Of a stretch of DNA of 64,000 nt, positions 20,226-29,945 are shown one piece after another (within the stretch, counting starts at the first letter, position 1; each line of letters begins with the position of its first letter). The stretch is from NCBI RefSeq assembly GCF_016342405.1, contig NZ_JAEINN010000001.1, positions 248,001-312,000 on the forward strand. The letters run 5' to 3'. The notes beneath the pieces were generated by a model. The model had not been told where the DNA came from. It searched no databases and worked only from the letters and a program-made list of their open reading frames with translations. The position numbers and the translations under genes were made by a program. The stretch comes from Maridesulfovibrio ferrireducens (GTDB taxonomy: Bacteria; Desulfobacterota; Desulfovibrionia; Desulfovibrionales; Desulfovibrionaceae).

Positions 20226-21215
20226 TTATTCTGGTTTAAGATCGCGTCCCATCAGGTCGCGAACAGCTGTTGCCGGGTTTTTGTCTTTGTATAGGATTTG
20301 GTAGACTTGTTCGGTTATGGGCATTTCCACACCTAACTTTTGAGCTAAGGCATGAACTGATTCCGTTGTTTTAACTCCTTCCGCTACCATTCTCATTTTG
20401 AGAATTTCAGAAAGCTTAAGACCTTGTCCCAGCTTTAAACCGACCTGTCTGTTTCGGGAAAGATCTCCTGTACAGGTAAGCACCAGATCACCGAGTCCTG
20501 AAAGTCCCATAAAAGTTGCGGGGTTCGCACCCATTGCAACTCCAAGTCTACTCATTTCTGCAATTCCCCGGGTAATGAGCGCGGCCCGGGCGTTATGTCC
20601 GAATTTAAGACCGTCAGCGATTCCTGCTGCAATGGCCATAATATTTTTTATAGCGCCGCCAATCTCAACTCCTCGGAAATCGGGGTTGGTGTAGACTCGT
20701 ACGTAATCACAGGCGAAAATTTCTTGAACTTCTTTGCCTAATTTTTCGTCTTCACAGCCAAATGCCAGTGAAGTAGGCATTTCCGCGCTTAGCTCATAAG
20801 CAAAAGTCGGGCCGGATATATGTCCGTATCTGGGGTTTAGTCCTTCAAGTGCTTCGAAAATTACCTGCGACATTGGTGCGCCGGTGTTTAGTTCTATTCC
20901 TTTGCTTGCGCAGATAATAGCTGGATTCTGGGGGAAAAATTGTTTTAAATCGCTGAGTGCGGAGCGCATAAACTGACTCGGAACAACCAGAATAAAGTAG
21001 TCTGCGTCCTTCATGACTTTTTCAGGGTCACTGTCACAGATAAGTTTTTCGGAAAGCTCAAAGTCCGGTAAAAAGACTGTGTTGCGTCCGGTTTTCTTTA
21101 TTTCATCAACAAGTTCCTGCTCTCTGACCCAAAGACTGACATTGTGATTATTTTTGGCAAGGGTGTTTGCTAAAGTTGTGCCCCAAGCTCCGGCACCGAT
21201 AACAGCAATTTTCAT
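20226..21215 (-). CDS. gpsA: Glycerol-3-phosphate dehydrogenase [NAD(P)+]
   Basis: Reduces dihydroxyacetone phosphate to sn-glycerol 3-phosphate for phospholipid synthesis, cytoplasmic. 329 residues. N-terminal Rossmann motif VIGAGAWGTTLA (4-15), the catalytic Lys in IGGAIKNIMAIAAG, and GLSGLGDLVLTC typical of GpsA. Start set at ATG 21215, where GGAG precedes and the protein begins MKIAVIGAGAW as in the family; the frame from 21239 adds eight spurious residues. Two direct GTACTCA repeats lie about 85 bases upstream. Confidence 0.95.
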   Translation of the reverse strand: MKIAVIGAGAWGTTLANTLAKNNHNVSLWVREQELVDEIKKTGRNTVFLPDFELSEKLICDSDPEKVMKDADYFILVVPSQFMRSALSDLKQFFPQNPAIICASKGIELNTGAPMSQVIFEALEGLNPRYGHISGPTFAYELSAEMPTSLAFGCEDEKLGKEVQEIFACDYVRVYTNPDFRGVEIGGAIKNIMAIAAGIADGLKFGHNARAALITRGIAEMSRLGVAMGANPATFMGLSGLGDLVLTCTGDLSRNRQVGLKLGQGLKLSEILKMRMVAEGVKTTESVHALAQKLGVEMPITEQVYQILYKDKNPATAVRDLMGRDLKPE

Positions 21216-21351
21216 ATTTACTCCTTCAAGACAAAACATATTGGGAATTCCGCAGAAAAAATGAGACCATCTATTCGGCGGATATAATTTGCATTAACGT
21301 ACTCAGGGCAAGGTACTCATACTAAGTGATTATGGCAACCTGCATAAACGT

Positions 21352-21414: not shown

Positions 21415-22767
21415 CTAGAGAGGTCCGGTGCTCATTACGTGAGACAGTTCTTCAATCTTACCGTTCTTAATACGGTAGTCATAGATCTTCTGCATGTCCT
21501 TGTAGACTTGGAAGACCTGGAAGAAACCATGCCAATGTGCATAGTCAGGTCCATTCATAGCTGAACCCTGACGGGCACGTCTGCCGCAATGATGCCAGAG
21601 GTAATACATCAGTTCCTGGAAGCCGTCATCCCAAGGTTCATCAATAAGAAGGAGGTTCTTTTCAGCAAGTTCCTTCTGCATCTTAGTCGCTCCGTCCCAA
21701 TATGTGTTGTAGAGTTCTACAGCATCATCAAGGGTCTGGCGTTGAACATTGGTGTGAGTGATTCCGTGACAGTTAGCACATACTTTACGCATGAGTTTGT
21801 CGCCTTTTTCGCCGTCACCACGTTCGCCGCTGCGGATAACGCTCTTCTTGTGCATGAGGTCCCACTTGAGGCGTTCATTGATGTTGTGAGTCGTGCTCAG
21901 TTCACCGATTCCGCTCATGTGACATACTGCGCAGGTAGGAGCATCGTAGTCGCCCGGCTGCCAGGCGTCAGGAGCACTGTCCCATCTCCATTCTTCACCG
22001 TGGGTGAGATAGCGTTGACCGTGCTTGCTTTCCAGATAAATTTCGATATCCGGATGGTCCGGTCCTAAATGACAGCTGGCGCAAGCTTCAGGCTTACGTG
22101 CTTCTTCAATGGAGAACTTATGTCTGGTATGACAGACAGTACAGGTTCCGATTGATCCGTCAGGATAGCGTGTTCCGACACCGCCCGGCCATGTGTTTTT
22201 GATAGGTTTGTTATCAGGTCCGAGTTCAACCTGAGTTCCGTGACACATCTGACAACCGGCTGCACGTGAAGCCATGTTCTGAGGTGTGTCTGCTTTCACT
22301 CCGATAAACTGGGCACCTTCATAATAGTACATCAGTTTGAGGAATTTTTTGTTTTCGATGACCGGAGCACCGGCAAGTTTTGCATGTCCGCTTTTCAGGA
22401 ACTGCTCAACTTCTTGCGGGTGACAACGGGAACATGTTTTGGAAGACACCATTGGTGAAATGAAGGTATTAGTTCCTTTCAATCCTTCACATTGACTGGC
22501 CATGGGCGAAGTTTTTTCAACAATGTGACAGTCATAACAGGAGACTGTAGCGTGGGCCATTTTGCCTGTTTTCCAGTCTTCTACAATCCCGGGTGTTTTC
22601 TTGGCATGACACTCAATACATTTTGTAGCATCTTCCGAAAAACCTCTTTTAACTACCAGCTCTTTAGGAGCAAGGTTGGGAAAAGGAGCTTCCGCAGCAT
22701 AAGCGGCTGCAGCGGATAGCGCGATAAGCATCGCGGCTACAACTAATTTAATCATCTGCTTCAACAT
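21415..22767 (-). CDS. haoA: Octaheme c-type cytochrome of the hydroxylamine oxidoreductase (HAO) family
   Basis: Periplasmic multihaem enzyme. The 450-residue protein (from ATG 22767, preceded by GGGGGT) has a signal peptide ending near residue 25 and exactly eight CXXCH motifs, with first cysteines at about 50, 77, 112, 172, 209, 229, 279 and 330. There is no CXXCK, so it is not a pentahaem Nrf[22 protein letters not shown] with [13 protein letters not shown] (each under 20 in the key core) is the HAO-family signature, and [14 protein letters not shown] occurs near the C-terminus. Relatives paired with NapC-type cytochromes (haoA/haoC of Epsilonproteobacteria) are thought to reduce hydroxylamine or nitrite; whether the P460 cross-link tyrosine is present needs alignment. 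Co-transcribed 18 bases after its tetrahaem partner. Confidence 0.85.
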
Positions 22768-22785
22768 GATTACCCCCAATTAAAA

Positions 22786-23355
22786 TCATAAGTCCTTTTT
22801 GAAGAACTTGTTGGTCATTTCAATCATGTCTTTGTGACCGACATGCGGGTGACAACTGGCACATTTTTTATCAGTCTGTCCGTAGAGATAAGCCCGGTGG
22901 GCGAGAAGAGCCCCAGGTTTGACACCTCTTGGTTCAAGCTTAACATGGCAATGCCTGCAAGCGCTGTCGTAGGTGAATTTTAACCTGTTCTTCTCGGCAT
23001 TTTCGGCCCAGTCGAACTCTGAAGGGTTGAACGTGATATGATGGATTACGTCACTTGTTCCGGTAATTGCTTTGGTTGTAAGATATTCTAGAAAGTTTCC
23101 GTGCGGCAGGTGGCAATCAACACACTGAGCTGCAAAGCCCTGCGGATTTTCTCCGCCGTGTACAGATTTTTGCCAAGAAGCTCTGAACGGTTTCATTTCA
23201 TGACACGTTTGACAAAATACATCCGTATTTGTCGTGTCTATCATAAACCCAGATGCAAGCACCGTAACAATTGCTACCAAAAGTCCCGTTGCAACTCCCC
23301 AACGCCATTTTCGACTGAAACCGCCACTCCCTTTTAGTTTAGGGTTGTCTGGCAT
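22786..23355 (-). CDS. haoC: NapC/NrfH-type tetrahaem quinol dehydrogenase (HaoC-like)
   Basis: Membrane-anchored tetrahaem cytochrome that takes electrons from menaquinol and passes them to a periplasmic reductase. 189 residues: a single N-terminal transmembrane helix (about 19-40, WGVATGLLVAIVTVLASGF) and four CXXCH motifs (CQTCH, CVDCH, CRHCH, CASCH), as in NapC/NirT/NrfH proteins. A start at ATG 23355 is preferred because GGAGGTGA, nearly a perfect ribosome site, stands eight bases before it; this makes the in-frame ATG at 23373 part of the leader. It is followed by the octaheme cytochrome gene, which defines its partner better than the usual NrfH label. Confidence 0.9.
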   Translation of the reverse strand: MPDNPKLKGSGGFSRKWRWGVATGLLVAIVTVLASGFMIDTTNTDVFCQTCHEMKPFRASWQKSVHGGENPQGFAAQCVDCHLPHGNFLEYLTTKAITGTSDVIHHITFNPSEFDWAENAEKNRLKFTYDSACRHCHVKLEPRGVKPGALLAHRAYLYGQTDKKCASCHPHVGHKDMIEMTNKFFKKDL

Positions 23356-23643
23356 TTTTTCAGTCACCTCCATGCTGTTAGGAGTTATCTCTTTTAATTC
23401 AAATCCTTAATGTCAAAATTTTCTGAGCATACCTCCTATAAAAAATTATTATCAATATGACTATCTCATTGGTAGAAATTTAAGTCCATAAGTTAGGTCA
23501 AAAAAGGTGATGTCTGTCTGTACAAACGGCTGATGGTAATTAATTGTGTTTCAGCCCTTGAGGATGATGTGATATGCGGGTATCACCATTTTTATAAAAA
23601 CGAATCCGGCCCGAAAGATTCAGGCCGCAGTCAAGGATGGGAT

Positions 23644-24120
23644 ATGGCTATAAAATTTACCGAGATTGAAGAGAATATTTTGGCACTTGCTGGCAGTACC
23701 CTTTCTGAGAGTGCTACGCCCTATGCTGATATAGCTGAGAAAGCCGGAACTGATGAAAAAACAGTTCTTGAGTTGTTGACTCGTCTTAAAGATGAAAAAA
23801 TAATTCGCCGTTTCGGTGCCACTCTCAGGCACCAGAAGGCAGGATACGGAGCTAACGCAATGGTTGCGTGGCGTGTGGAAGAATCGCAAAACCCCGAGAA
23901 AATCGGTGAGCAGATGGCTAAAAGGCCGGAAATCAGCCATTGCTATCTGCGCACTGTTTATCCTGACTGGCCTTACAATTTGTATACGATGATTCACGGC
24001 AAAGGTCCTGATGACTGCAAAAAAGTAGTCAAAGAACTGATGGCGGAAACGGGTGTCACTGATCATTGCATTTTGCGGAGTCTTAAAGAACTCAAAAAGA
24101 CTTCGATGAAATATTTCTAA
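23644..24120 (+). CDS. ahbB: Siroheme decarboxylase subunit beta (AhbB), AsnC/Lrp-like
   Basis: One half of the AhbAB enzyme that decarboxylates sirohaem to didecarboxysirohaem in the alternative haem pathway of sulfate reducers and archaea. 158 residues: winged-helix N-terminal part (EIEENILALAG ... IRRFGATLRHQKAGYGANAM, core RRFGATLRHQKAGYG) and an Lrp-like ligand domain with SHCYLRTVYPDWPYNLYTM (core HCYLR, WPYNLYTM). These blocks match AhbB rather than AhbA. Older annotation would call it an AsnC-family regulator. Start at ATG 23644 (GGATGGGAT upstream) rather than 23533, which adds a non-homologous 37 residues. hemL follows after 64 bases, supporting a tetrapyrrole role. Confidence 0.88.
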   Translation: MAIKFTEIEENILALAGSTLSESATPYADIAEKAGTDEKTVLELLTRLKDEKIIRRFGATLRHQKAGYGANAMVAWRVEESQNPEKIGEQMAKRPEISHCYLRTVYPDWPYNLYTMIHGKGPDDCKKVVKELMAETGVTDHCILRSLKELKKTSMKYF

Positions 24121-27465: not shown

Positions 27466-27867
27466 ATGAAAAAGACCTTATTGATTTGTATGGTTACAGC
27501 AGCATTGGTATGTGCTTTCGCACTTCCAACTTTGTATGCTGTAGACGCTCCCGGCGACATGGTTTTGAAAGCACCTGCCGGTGCTAAGATGACCAAAGAG
27601 CCTGTTAATTTTTCTCACAAAGGGCATGCAGCTCTTGACTGTAAAAAATGCCATCACACATGGGACGGCGCTGCTGCAGTAAAGAAATGTTCTGATGAAG
27701 GTTGTCATGTTGACACAAGTAAAGAAGGCAAGAAAAAGCCTGAGTCCTTCTACTCTGCTTTCCACGCTAAGTCTGAGCAGAGCTGCGTAGGCTGCCATAA
27801 GGCTTTGAAGAAAGCTAAAGCTAAGACTGGACCTACTAAGTGTGGCGACTGTCATCCTAAGAAGTAA
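27466..27867 (+). CDS. Periplasmic tetrahaem cytochrome c3 (type I)
   Basis: Low-potential periplasmic electron carrier that receives electrons from hydrogenases and formate dehydrogenases and feeds transmembrane complexes in Desulfovibrio. 133 residues with a signal peptide ending at LYA (about 24). Four haem sites: C59-C62-H63, C75-x4-C80-H81, C107-C110-H111, C126-C129-H130, with candidate axial His at 51, 54, 64 and 100, as in type I c3. The fourth site is CX2CH, whereas D. vulgaris has CX4CH there. Lysine-rich surface around haem 4 fits docking to hydrogenase. ATGGAGGAAAC supplies a strong ribosome site. Monocistronic between promoter and terminator. Confidence 0.95.
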   Translation: MKKTLLICMVTAALVCAFALPTLYAVDAPGDMVLKAPAGAKMTKEPVNFSHKGHAALDCKKCHHTWDGAAAVKKCSDEGCHVDTSKEGKKKPESFYSAFHAKSEQSCVGCHKALKKAKAKTGPTKCGDCHPKK

Positions 27868-27935: not shown

Positions 27936-29945
27936 ATGACCCCGGATTCACCGGATAAGCAGGCAAAGGATGAGGTTCTTGACCTTAATGATATCGCGGA
28001 AGAAATCGTTGAAGACGATGCTTCTGGAGGTCATGATGTAGATGCCAGTTTCGAGCAGGAACTTGAAGACCTTTTTTCCGAAGATCTGGAGCTTGAAGAG
28101 CCCGCTGTCGTTAATCATGAAGACGATTCAGAGGATGAAGATCTTCTTGTGCTCGATGATGTTATCGAAGAAGTCAGTGACGAAGATCTGATGATCCTTG
28201 ATGACGTTGTGGAAGAAGAGGAAGAAGATATTCTGGAACTAGATGATATCCTGGAACTCGATGACATTGTCGAGGAAGTTGATGAATTAGAATCTCCGGA
28301 TTCTGATACAGATGATCTTTTAGAAAATTTTGATCTCGGTGAAGAATCGCTTATGGCTGAGGCGGATGATTCCGTTGAAGGTGAGATTGATCCCGAAGGC
28401 TTAGATAATGTTATCGATGAGCTGGGCGGAGAAATTACCGTTGCCGCAGATGATGAAGAGGATATTGATAACCTGTTTGACAGCGACACAGATGTCGCGG
28501 ACCTTGATCAACTGTTGGAAGAGTCCGGTGATAATGACGAGATAGGTGAACTTGATGATTTGCTTGGTGAGGTCTCTGACGGAGTGGATCTTTCCGGTCT
28601 GGGAGAGGATGTTCTTGCAGATGAAGATATTGAAGGACTGCTTTCGGACGAGGAAGATATTATAGAGATTTCCGAAGAAGGGCTCGAACCTCTCGATGAT
28701 GTTCTTGACGTGGATTTTGATGTCGTAGACGAACCGGTCGAAACAGTAGAACCTGTCGAAACAGTAGAACCTGTTGAAATAGTAGAGCCTGTTGAAATAG
28801 TAGAGCCTGCTGAAACAGTTGAGTTTGAAACAGCAGAAGTTATTGAAATTGAACCGGTTGAAGTTATCGAGACTGTTGAGGTTGCCGAAACCGTATTAGA
28901 CGCCGAAGAAGATTTTGAAGATGTTGACCTTGATGTCGACCTCGATTCAATCCTTGAAAGTACCACAGATTTAGATCTATCCCTTACTGCTGAAGATGAA
29001 GAGCTTGATACATCATTTGATGATGCAGAAATTCTTGATTCAGATAGTGGTGATGATATTATGCTGGATGACGACGATATAGATCTCGGAGAATTGCTTG
29101 AAGATGTTGATATAGATTTTTCCGATCTTGATGAAGAAGAGTCTATGCAAATTGATGAACCCGTTTCTGCCGTTGTCAGTTCTGAAGCTGTTGATGACTT
29201 GACTGATAAAGTTGAGTTTCTTGATTCAGAGTTAGCAAAAATGAAGGGGCTTATTGAAGCAACCGCTGTTGGATGCCGGGGTGCTAATCTTGAGGAAAAA
29301 GTAGGTCTGGCGGAAAAACGTGCGGAAGACCTTGAGAATTCGCTTTCTGAAGCTTCTGAAAGGATTATAGATCTGGAAGAAAAAGTTGCTCAGATTGATG
29401 CTCTTGAAAGTACTGTTTCTTCTTTGTTGGCTACCGTTCAGGGGCTTGAAGAACGATTGTCAGGAGGAGAGATTGAGTCTGTTGTCGGGCAGAAGTTAAG
29501 CGAAGAGCTTAAAGCTGATTCTCCCGCTGTGATTGCAATTGCCGCTACGGCAGCTGACGAGATACAGGCACAAGTTGAAGAACAGATTCAGATTGGACTT
29601 CGTGAAATTCAGGTTGAAATAGGTGAGCGGGTAGCAGCGGTAGAAGGAAAACTTCAAAATGCTCCTGATGTGGAAGAGCTTGTGCGGAAGGAATTGGAAA
29701 AAGAACTTGATCCTGATTCAACATCGTTTTACCGCATAAAGAGCCGTCTTACAGAAGATATTGAAGATTATCTGGCTCCGCGTTTAGTTGAAAAGATAGA
29801 AGATATAAAGGGCGAAATTGAAGAAGCCTTTAAATCTTCTATCGATGATATTCTGGCTGAAAAGCTCGAAAAATCGGTTCCGGCCGAGGCTGCACGTATT
29901 ATTCGTGAAGAAATTGCGGCTCTTGCCCGAGATTTTGAAGAATAG
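27936..29945 (+). CDS. Highly acidic hypothetical protein with tandem VE(T/I)VEP repeats
   Basis: 669 residues, no recognised family. The first 420 residues are extraordinarily acidic: repeated clusters of Asp/Glu with recurring short motifs such as LDDIVEE, LELDDI and ELDDLLGE. At about residues 265-297 there is a perfect-looking hexapeptide repeat (consensus V-E-T/I-V-E-P, 18-base unit). Residues about 430-510 form a coiled coil (heptads of Leu/Glu/Lys), and the C-terminal 150 residues are helical and mixed-charge. There is no signal peptide or membrane segment. The position just after cytochrome c3 and its terminator suggests its own transcript; GAGGG lies upstream of ATG 27936. A scaffold or regulatory role is conceivable but not supported. 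Confidence 0.85.
   Translation: MTPDSPDKQAKDEVLDLNDIAEEIVEDDASGGHDVDASFEQELEDLFSEDLELEEPAVVNHEDDSEDEDLLVLDDVIEEVSDEDLMILDDVVEEEEEDILELDDILELDDIVEEVDELESPDSDTDDLLENFDLGEESLMAEADDSVEGEIDPEGLDNVIDELGGEITVAADDEEDIDNLFDSDTDVADLDQLLEESGDNDEIGELDDLLGEVSDGVDLSGLGEDVLADEDIEGLLSDEEDIIEISEEGLEPLDDVLDVDFDVVDEPVETVEPVETVEPVEIVEPVEIVEPAETVEFETAEVIEIEPVEVIETVEVAETVLDAEEDFEDVDLDVDLDSILESTTDLDLSLTAEDEELDTSFDDAEILDSDSGDDIMLDDDDIDLGELLEDVDIDFSDLDEEESMQIDEPVSAVVSSEAVDDLTDKVEFLDSELAKMKGLIEATAVGCRGANLEEKVGLAEKRAEDLENSLSEASERIIDLEEKVAQIDALESTVSSLLATVQGLEERLSGGEIESVVGQKLSEELKADSPAVIAIAATAADEIQAQVEEQIQIGLREIQVEIGERVAAVEGKLQNAPDVEELVRKELEKELDPDSTSFYRIKSRLTEDIEDYLAPRLVEKIEDIKGEIEEAFKSSIDDILAEKLEKSVPAEAARIIREEIAALARDFEE
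28729..28827 (+). repeat. In-frame tandem repeat, 18-base unit, about five copies
   Basis: Four full units at 28741-28758, 28759-28776, 28777-28794 and 28795-28812 (AAACAGTAGAACCTGTCG type), with partial units on both flanks. The copies differ by one to four bases, each a synonymous or Thr/Ile, Val/Ala change, so the protein repeat is kept. Confidence 0.9.

Follow-up and report, generated by a model that had tools for sequence, protein, structure and literature searches.

The locus raises two questions: to which family does its pair of multihaem cytochromes belong, and what does the pair do for its host? It lies in a window of 64,000 nt, the whole stretch of DNA that was analysed (positions 248,001-312,000 of NZ_JAEINN010000001.1, contig 1 of the 4.2 Mb genome of Maridesulfovibrio ferrireducens, GCF_016342405.1). 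The features are as follows.

21415..22767, minus strand: HaoA, octahaem HAO-family protein with eight CXXCH, a signal-like N-terminal helix and His at the cross-link site
22786..23355, minus strand: HaoC, tetrahaem NapC/NrfH-type partner with a single helix and CXXCHxM at haem 1
23356..23643, minus strand: divergent promoter region that separates haoC from ahbB; its homologue precedes nrfHA in sister species
23486..23501, minus strand: decayed copy of the 16-mer TTGACTTAAGTCATAG with 4 mismatches (counted by eye)
20226..21239, minus strand: gpsA, border of the exchanged slot (context, outside the system)
23644..24120, plus strand: ahbB (sirohaem decarboxylase beta), the other border of the slot (NF040707, 174 bits, cut-off 125)

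On the minus strand haoC lies upstream and haoA follows. The haoA reading frame spans 21415-22779, and translation probably begins at the ATG at 22767, which GGGGG immediately precedes. The tetrahaem reading frame extends over 22786-23373. Its outer ATG is missing in six of the seven genus relatives compared, whose haoC starts correspond to 23355. With the start at this equivalent position, the gap between the two genes is therefore 18 bases, as the initial annotation had stated. The same annotation had called the host a sulfate reducer, and this label fits since dsrA is present (603 bits, above the cut-off).

Family and active site of the cytochrome pair

The haem motifs of HaoA are CIECH, CYDCH, CSRCH, CQMCH, CTVCH, CASCH, CAVCH and CANCH, and CXXCK does not occur. 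HaoA matched Pfam PF13447 (E = 4.6e-31), and a profile search with 15 relatives retrieved the solved HAO-fold proteins 4qo5 (8e-114), 6h5l (6e-63) and 1fgj (3.7e-55). The family match is not due to chance. NrfA chains matched this profile weakly only (best 4.8e-10), and the score of HaoA against PF02335, the NrfA family, was 15.3 bits under a cut-off of 24.1. A pentahaem NrfA with CXXCK was thus ruled out by the zero CXXCK count and the sub-cut-off PF02335 score. The initial annotation, which had counted eight CXXCH and no CXXCK, named HAO-family blocks that are present in the translation and assigned the protein to the HAO family and not to NrfA, was right on these points. Chains of the eight-heme nitrite reductase ONR appeared in the profile search at E of about 3e-4 to 5e-4 with the N-terminal part; ONR was ruled out because the active-site CXXCK is missing. 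No tetrathionate reductase name stood among the 35 profile matches, and no NCBIfam model exceeded its cut-off for either HaoA or HaoC. An AlphaFold model of HaoA from a 34-row alignment had a mean pLDDT of 54.7, too poor to inform on the fold.

The active site was read by alignment to Nitrosomonas HAO (1fgj), with HaoA residues numbered on a 449-residue query that begins one codon past the ATG. GCTMCH of 1fgj (residues 228-233), which we take to be the P460 haem (haem 4), aligns with GCQMCH of HaoA. By this alignment, haem 4 of HaoA would be the one bound at CQMCH (residues 171-175), and Asp236-His237 would lie next to it. The latter pair comes right after the sixth CXXCH and corresponds to Asp267-His268 of 1fgj, presumably catalytic. 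Tyr467 of Nitrosomonas HAO aligns with His410 in DYAHWHG of HaoA, counted back from the common C-terminal glycine. At this column, where the initial annotation had proposed to look for the P460 tyrosine, HaoA has a reductive-type look, and with His there it is predicted to be without the P460 cross-link.

Two clades were distinguished by their match to HaoA: clade A, that of the window, at 700 bits or more, and clade B at 230-330 bits and about 40-46% identity. His occupies the cross-link site in 60/60 readable rows of clade A and Asp-His follows the sixth CXXCH in 60/60; eight CXXCH were counted in 59 of these rows and seven in one. Clade B has Trp at the cross-link site and Asp-His in all 26 rows, and the 4qo5-type rows of the order have Asp-Val instead of Asp-His (4/4). 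According to PMC12758564, reductive HAOs have His at the cross-link site and oxidative HAOs have Tyr. HaoA thus looks like the reductive type. Eight CXXCH, His at the cross-link site and the kept Asp-His indicate neither NrfHA nor an oxidative HAO; judged by sequence, HaoA is a member of the HAO family of a predicted reductive type, which excludes NrfA, ONR and oxidative HAO.

At two other loci (L018:1470-2780, L022:3382-4662), a further and shorter octahaem protein of the HAO family is found on the upstream side of the clade A pair. It reads DYAYWYG in both, with Tyr at the cross-link site; a predicted oxidative HAO adjoining a reductive HAO in anaerobes would be odd. Another HAO-family protein (L079:229-1560) reads DYTFWYG, with Phe at this site.

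HaoC consists of one N-terminal hydrophobic helix and a tetrahaem part. It matched PF03264 (E = 2.7e-30) and the NrfH chain 2j7a_C (1.2e-7). The haem-1 motif CXXCHxM was present in 54/55 of the clade A partners found and, by alignment, in NrfH of 2j7a too. Clade B partners have CXXCHEI in 19/19 pairs found. The homology of the partner suggests a quinol link for HaoC, which the initial annotation had specified as menaquinol.

Exchange with NrfHA between gpsA and ahbB

The gpsA-to-ahbB region was fetched from 16 other genus genomes and mapped (n = 17 with the window). The slot holds HaoC-HaoA in eight genomes and NrfA in four (NrfH seen in three), and the intact pair is absent in five. In G005, G006, G012, G014, G011, G001, G010 and the window, HaoC-HaoA lie next to ahbB and are always oriented divergently from it; G010 keeps the ahbB side only, with gpsA 26 kb off, and gpsA is about 6 kb off in G006 and G012. 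In G016, G007 and G003, the slot is occupied by a tetrahaem gene together with an NrfA whose motifs are four CXXCH and one CXXCK; in G007 and G003, other genes of about 7 kb separate this pair from gpsA. In G009 (84% complete), an NrfA with CXXCK follows gpsA, and a contig end hides NrfH and the ahbB side. The cytochrome pair is absent from the slot of G008, G004, G013, G015 and G002: G004 retains a remnant made of the promoter region and about 40 haoC codons, gpsA of G015 is inverted, and a clade B HAO of G002 sits elsewhere in its genome. HaoC of G010 and NrfH of G016 are 26% identical.

Related ORFs (MPYVSFLKEL...) at L168:3257-4822, L169:11397-12941 and L170:3035-4582, together with others, separate the cytochrome pair from gpsA. 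Such extra ORFs in some genus members mark the slot as a variable region.

In a midpoint-rooted GpsA+AhbB+HemL tree of 16 genus genomes, with G009 left out, the NrfHA genomes G016, G007 and G003 group with the HaoCA genomes G001 and G010 and the remnant-bearing G004 (fork 100/100). This six-genome group is unresolved inside, and HaoCA also occurs on earlier branches. Most simply, HaoCA would be older in the genus and NrfHA would have replaced it once or twice; the reverse replacement, HaoCA displacing NrfHA, may have occurred inside the six-genome group. The kind of enzyme is already known (epsilon-Hao, reverse-HURM). The exchange of hao and nrf in place at one locus would be the new element, none having been found in the open-access literature searched by titles and abstract starts.

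One promoter element, which contains the palindrome TGACTTAAGTCA, is common to the HaoCA and NrfHA versions of the slot. TTGACTTAAGTCATAG with at most one mismatch gave eight matches in the 17 genomes, all at the slot, five before haoC and three before nrfH; the reversed TTGACTTAAGTCATAG control gave six matches in all, tallied regardless of place. The copies in the window, G005 and G011 exceed one mismatch. Between the two versions, the sequence can be aligned from ahbB as far as the ribosome-binding site and diverges just downstream. For G016 (Nrf) against G010 (Hao), 72/83 columns are identical from the palindrome to the ribosome-binding site and 24/65 just after; for G016 against the window, the values are 49/83 before and 17/72 after. 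It is rather probable, in our estimate, that the HaoCA and NrfHA cassettes can stand in for each other as nitrite reductases, and that they were swapped at a single locus under the same dedicated regulatory site.

A search before haoC for a known NO/nitrite regulator site, made with the HcpR consensus TTGTGANNNNNNTCACAA (up to 3 mismatches), gave no match. The consensus was not found in seven sister loci examined (up to 2 mismatches), nor in 11 hcp-linked loci (up to 1 mismatch), among which the variant TTGTCANNNNNNTGACAA had a single match, in L043. The 368 bases upstream of the host hcp ORF contain one TTGTGANNNNNNTCACAA site at 3 mismatches and no GACTTAAGTC (up to 2 mismatches).

Distribution across the order and gene neighbours

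The survey of the order covered 247 genomes with a completeness of at least 90%. Clade A was present in 22 and clade B in 59, with both in four; a 100-row HAO tree built by a quick method separates the clades, with SH-aLRT of 92 and 88 at the forks. A strong NrfA, defined as a PF02335 match with E < 1e-30, was found in 154. Clade A and NrfA occurred together in 2 genomes, clade A only in 20, NrfA only in 152 and neither in 73 (Fisher p = 9e-8, kinship ignored). For clade B the corresponding counts were 8, 51, 146 and 42 (p = 6e-19, kinship ignored), and for either clade 9, 68, 145 and 25 (p = 2e-29, kinship ignored). In these counts, 18 further genomes with weak PF02335 matches were taken as NrfA-less, of which the matches in G041 and G133 (about 1e-13) may be fragments. 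Within the set, the 16 genus genomes comprise eight with clade A, one with clade B, three with NrfA and four with none of these. The two clade A genomes that retain NrfA are counter-evidence. Avoidance of NrfA is also seen in clade B (8/59), though NapA is near none of 26 clade B regions.

NapA was detected in 37/247 genomes with up to the best four candidates per genome scored, and 35 of the 37 have a strong NrfA. In the remaining two (G217, G219), a clade A HAO lies about 6 kb from nap. A search by TIGR01706 on the best three candidates per genome listed two genomes and was rejected for the scan giving 37. Clade A is present in two copies in each of four related genomes (G173, G170, G171, G172), the copies being 68-73% identical to that of the window.

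Neighbours of clade A were collected by tblastn from 63 loci, 49 named ones and 14 regions from 13 of the 22 clade A order genomes. In the flanks examined, Hcp, an hcp-type ferredoxin and a CRP-type regulator were each near 11/63 and NapA was near 7/63. About 0.43 Hcp and 0.22 NapA would be expected near 63 loci (Poisson p = 2e-12 and 4e-9), the Hcp value assuming two copies per 4 Mb; when each set of related arrangements entered the count a single time, p was 6e-6 for Hcp and 8e-5 for NapA. A single Desulfoluna-like arrangement accounts for six of the Hcp loci (L005, L009, L010, L011, L042, L043). L034 is identical with L115, and L021 overlaps L022; neither Hcp nor NapA is near any of these four. 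Neither gene was in the flanks of 45/63 loci, many of these flanks being short. Identities were confirmed by family scan for Hcp of L003 (844 bits, cut-off 367); for NapA of L014, the best NCBIfam model was NapA, under its curated cut-off, and the best solved match was 2jio (737 bits), which we take to be the periplasmic nitrate reductase of Desulfovibrio. Cultured clade A carriers include named Desulfoluna and Halodesulfovibrio strains. The 26 clade B regions had Hcp in 3, the ferredoxin in 5, and neither NapA nor a Tll0287-type kinase in any.

A histidine kinase whose sensor domain is Tll0287-like is near 22 of about 63 clade A loci. In several lineages it lies divergently upstream of haoC, as at L024:5534-7117, where an NtrC-type sigma-54 regulator follows. 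The Tll0287-like domain may bind haem, and the kinase may sense nitrite or NO. The flanks in the window contain none of Hcp, hcp-type ferredoxin, CRP-type regulator, NapA and Tll0287-type kinase.

In the host genome, NrfA was not found, the top PF02335 score being 34.7 bits on an eight-CXXCH protein. This protein (L080:1246-2532; G000:C17:51474-52124) adjoins a 230-residue ORF with three CXXCH and has no NCBIfam match at 1e-20; it was rejected as NrfA. NapA was not detected at E <= 1e-150 with up to the best four candidates scored, and the molybdopterin proteins found were formate dehydrogenases, QrcB and one further 640-aa protein. One Hcp was over the cut-off (L102, 811 bits, cut-off 367), with a ferredoxin-like ORF downstream; a second PF03063 match was rejected, being a CO dehydrogenase. 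Elsewhere in the window, 27936-29945 (plus strand) encodes a highly acidic 669-residue protein with VEPVE-type repeats and without a Pfam match at 1e-5. A class III cytochrome c is encoded at 27466-27867 (plus strand), with TmcA nearest but under its cut-off (46 of 114 bits), and its homologue is near ahbB-hemL-cbiG in several sister species.

Proposed function and comparison with known systems

The genomic evidence for the function of HaoCA is unusually good. We consider it highly probable that HaoCA is a quinol-linked nitrite/hydroxylamine reductase doing the job of NrfHA, probably in nitrite detoxification. In terms of donor, substrate, product and physiological role, HaoC would draw electrons from the quinol pool for HaoA. 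This octahaem cytochrome of the periplasm would use them at haem 4 to reduce nitrite and, probably, also hydroxylamine and NO. The product would be ammonium or, in part, hydroxylamine finished by cytoplasmic Hcp. NrfHA protects D. vulgaris against nitrite. HaoCA would be equivalent to NrfHA of the sister species, removing nitrite and so protecting sulfite reductase, and in relatives with Nap it would be the second step of nitrate ammonification. Several results speak against this reading: the host has no detected NapA, so that nitrite would have to come from outside the cell, the HcpR consensus is absent before haoC, and 45/63 clade A loci, like the window, show neither Hcp nor NapA in the flanks examined. 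Without NrfA or detected NapA and with Hcp, detoxification of external nitrite is likelier for the host than nitrate respiration.

The initial annotation had left the choice between a nitrogen- and a sulfur-oxyanion reductase. The nitrogen part is favoured, with nitrite first, by the exchange with NrfHA under a shared promoter, the avoidance of NrfA and the nap/hcp neighbours in relatives, and the exchange in close relatives makes it very probable that HaoA removes nitrite. The exchange, the shared promoter and the nap/hcp neighbours make it unlikely that HaoCA is a terminal reductase of sulfur species such as sulfite, thiosulfate or tetrathionate, although the host itself is a sulfate reducer, PMC9213671 proposed a sulfur role for clade I HAO of a Desulfobacterota lineage, possibly not the clade of the window, and MccA and OTR are cited there as sulfur-active within the wider fold. 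NrfA may act on sulfite as well, according to PMC12285233, so that equivalence to NrfA leaves some room for a sulfur substrate. It is equally improbable that HaoA mainly scavenges hydroxylamine or NO with nitrite as a side substrate. The Hcp, 4Fe-4S ferredoxin and CRP-type regulator neighbours would suit such a role, as would the statement in PMC10949509 that Hcp may be an NO reductase, but the NrfHA exchange and the nap association indicate nitrite first. Since NrfA itself is linked to NO and hydroxylamine removal in PMC12285233, the difference is only one of degree. An oxidation of hydroxylamine to NO with electrons entering the quinone pool, as suggested by the family name and fold and by the oxidative interpretation of Desulfofaba HAO in PMC10116758, is hardly credible, given His and not Tyr in all 60 clade A rows and a reductase as the exchange partner.

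A reductive, nitrite-directed function of HaoCA would have consequences beyond this host. According to PMC9213671, Desulfobacterota is where HAO-family genes occur most often, and, the Campylobacterota lineage apart, clades I and II have no known function. The exchange with NrfHA amounts to a complementation experiment made by nature, and it points to nitrite for an HAO clade lacking an assigned function. If the two cassettes are indeed interchangeable, a large HAO clade of marine sulfate reducers would be a nitrite shield and ammonification enzyme, and to label its genes 'hydroxylamine oxidation' in sediment metagenomes would get the direction wrong. Such HAO genes of anoxic sediments should not be taken as nitrification, nor NrfA-less sulfate reducers as thereby nitrite-sensitive.

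Among known systems, Desulfovibrio NrfHA (2j7a) resembles the pair in joining a tetrahaem quinol dehydrogenase to a multihaem reductase, and in sister species NrfHA occupies this very slot behind the same promoter. The difference lies in the reductase, which has five haems and a CXXCK in NrfA but eight haems and no CXXCK in HaoA. The best solved relative of HaoA is 4qo5, whose entry reads hypothetical multiheme protein and which we take to be IhOCC of Ignicoccus hospitalis; it has Val in place of His of the Asp-His pair. Nitrosomonas HAO (1fgj), presumably with eight haems, is of the same family and has the Asp-His pair. However, HaoA has His in place of its Tyr467 and is shorter, and the host is anaerobic. 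In the vent bacteria Thermosulfurimonas and Dissulfuribacter, which are without NrfA, an HAO homologue beside nap was proposed to reduce nitrite; unlike that of the window, it has an NrfD-type partner gene, and a CycB-type tetrahaem partner was not found (PMC5276818). The reverse-HURM module of PMC3701875 comprises Nap, HaoA without Tyr with the NapC/NrfH-type CycB, Hcp and a 4Fe-4S protein, and it occurs together with NrfAH in one genome only. The window is similar to this epsilon-Hao/reverse-HURM system of Nautilia and Campylobacter in its octahaem HAO without Tyr, its NapC/NrfH-type donor and, at the level of the genome, Hcp with its linked ferredoxin. It differs, in a comparison made with sequences from outside Campylobacterota, in its Desulfobacterota clade, in the undetected NapA, in the adjacent NrfH-type partner with CXXCHxM, and in the exchange with NrfHA at one locus.
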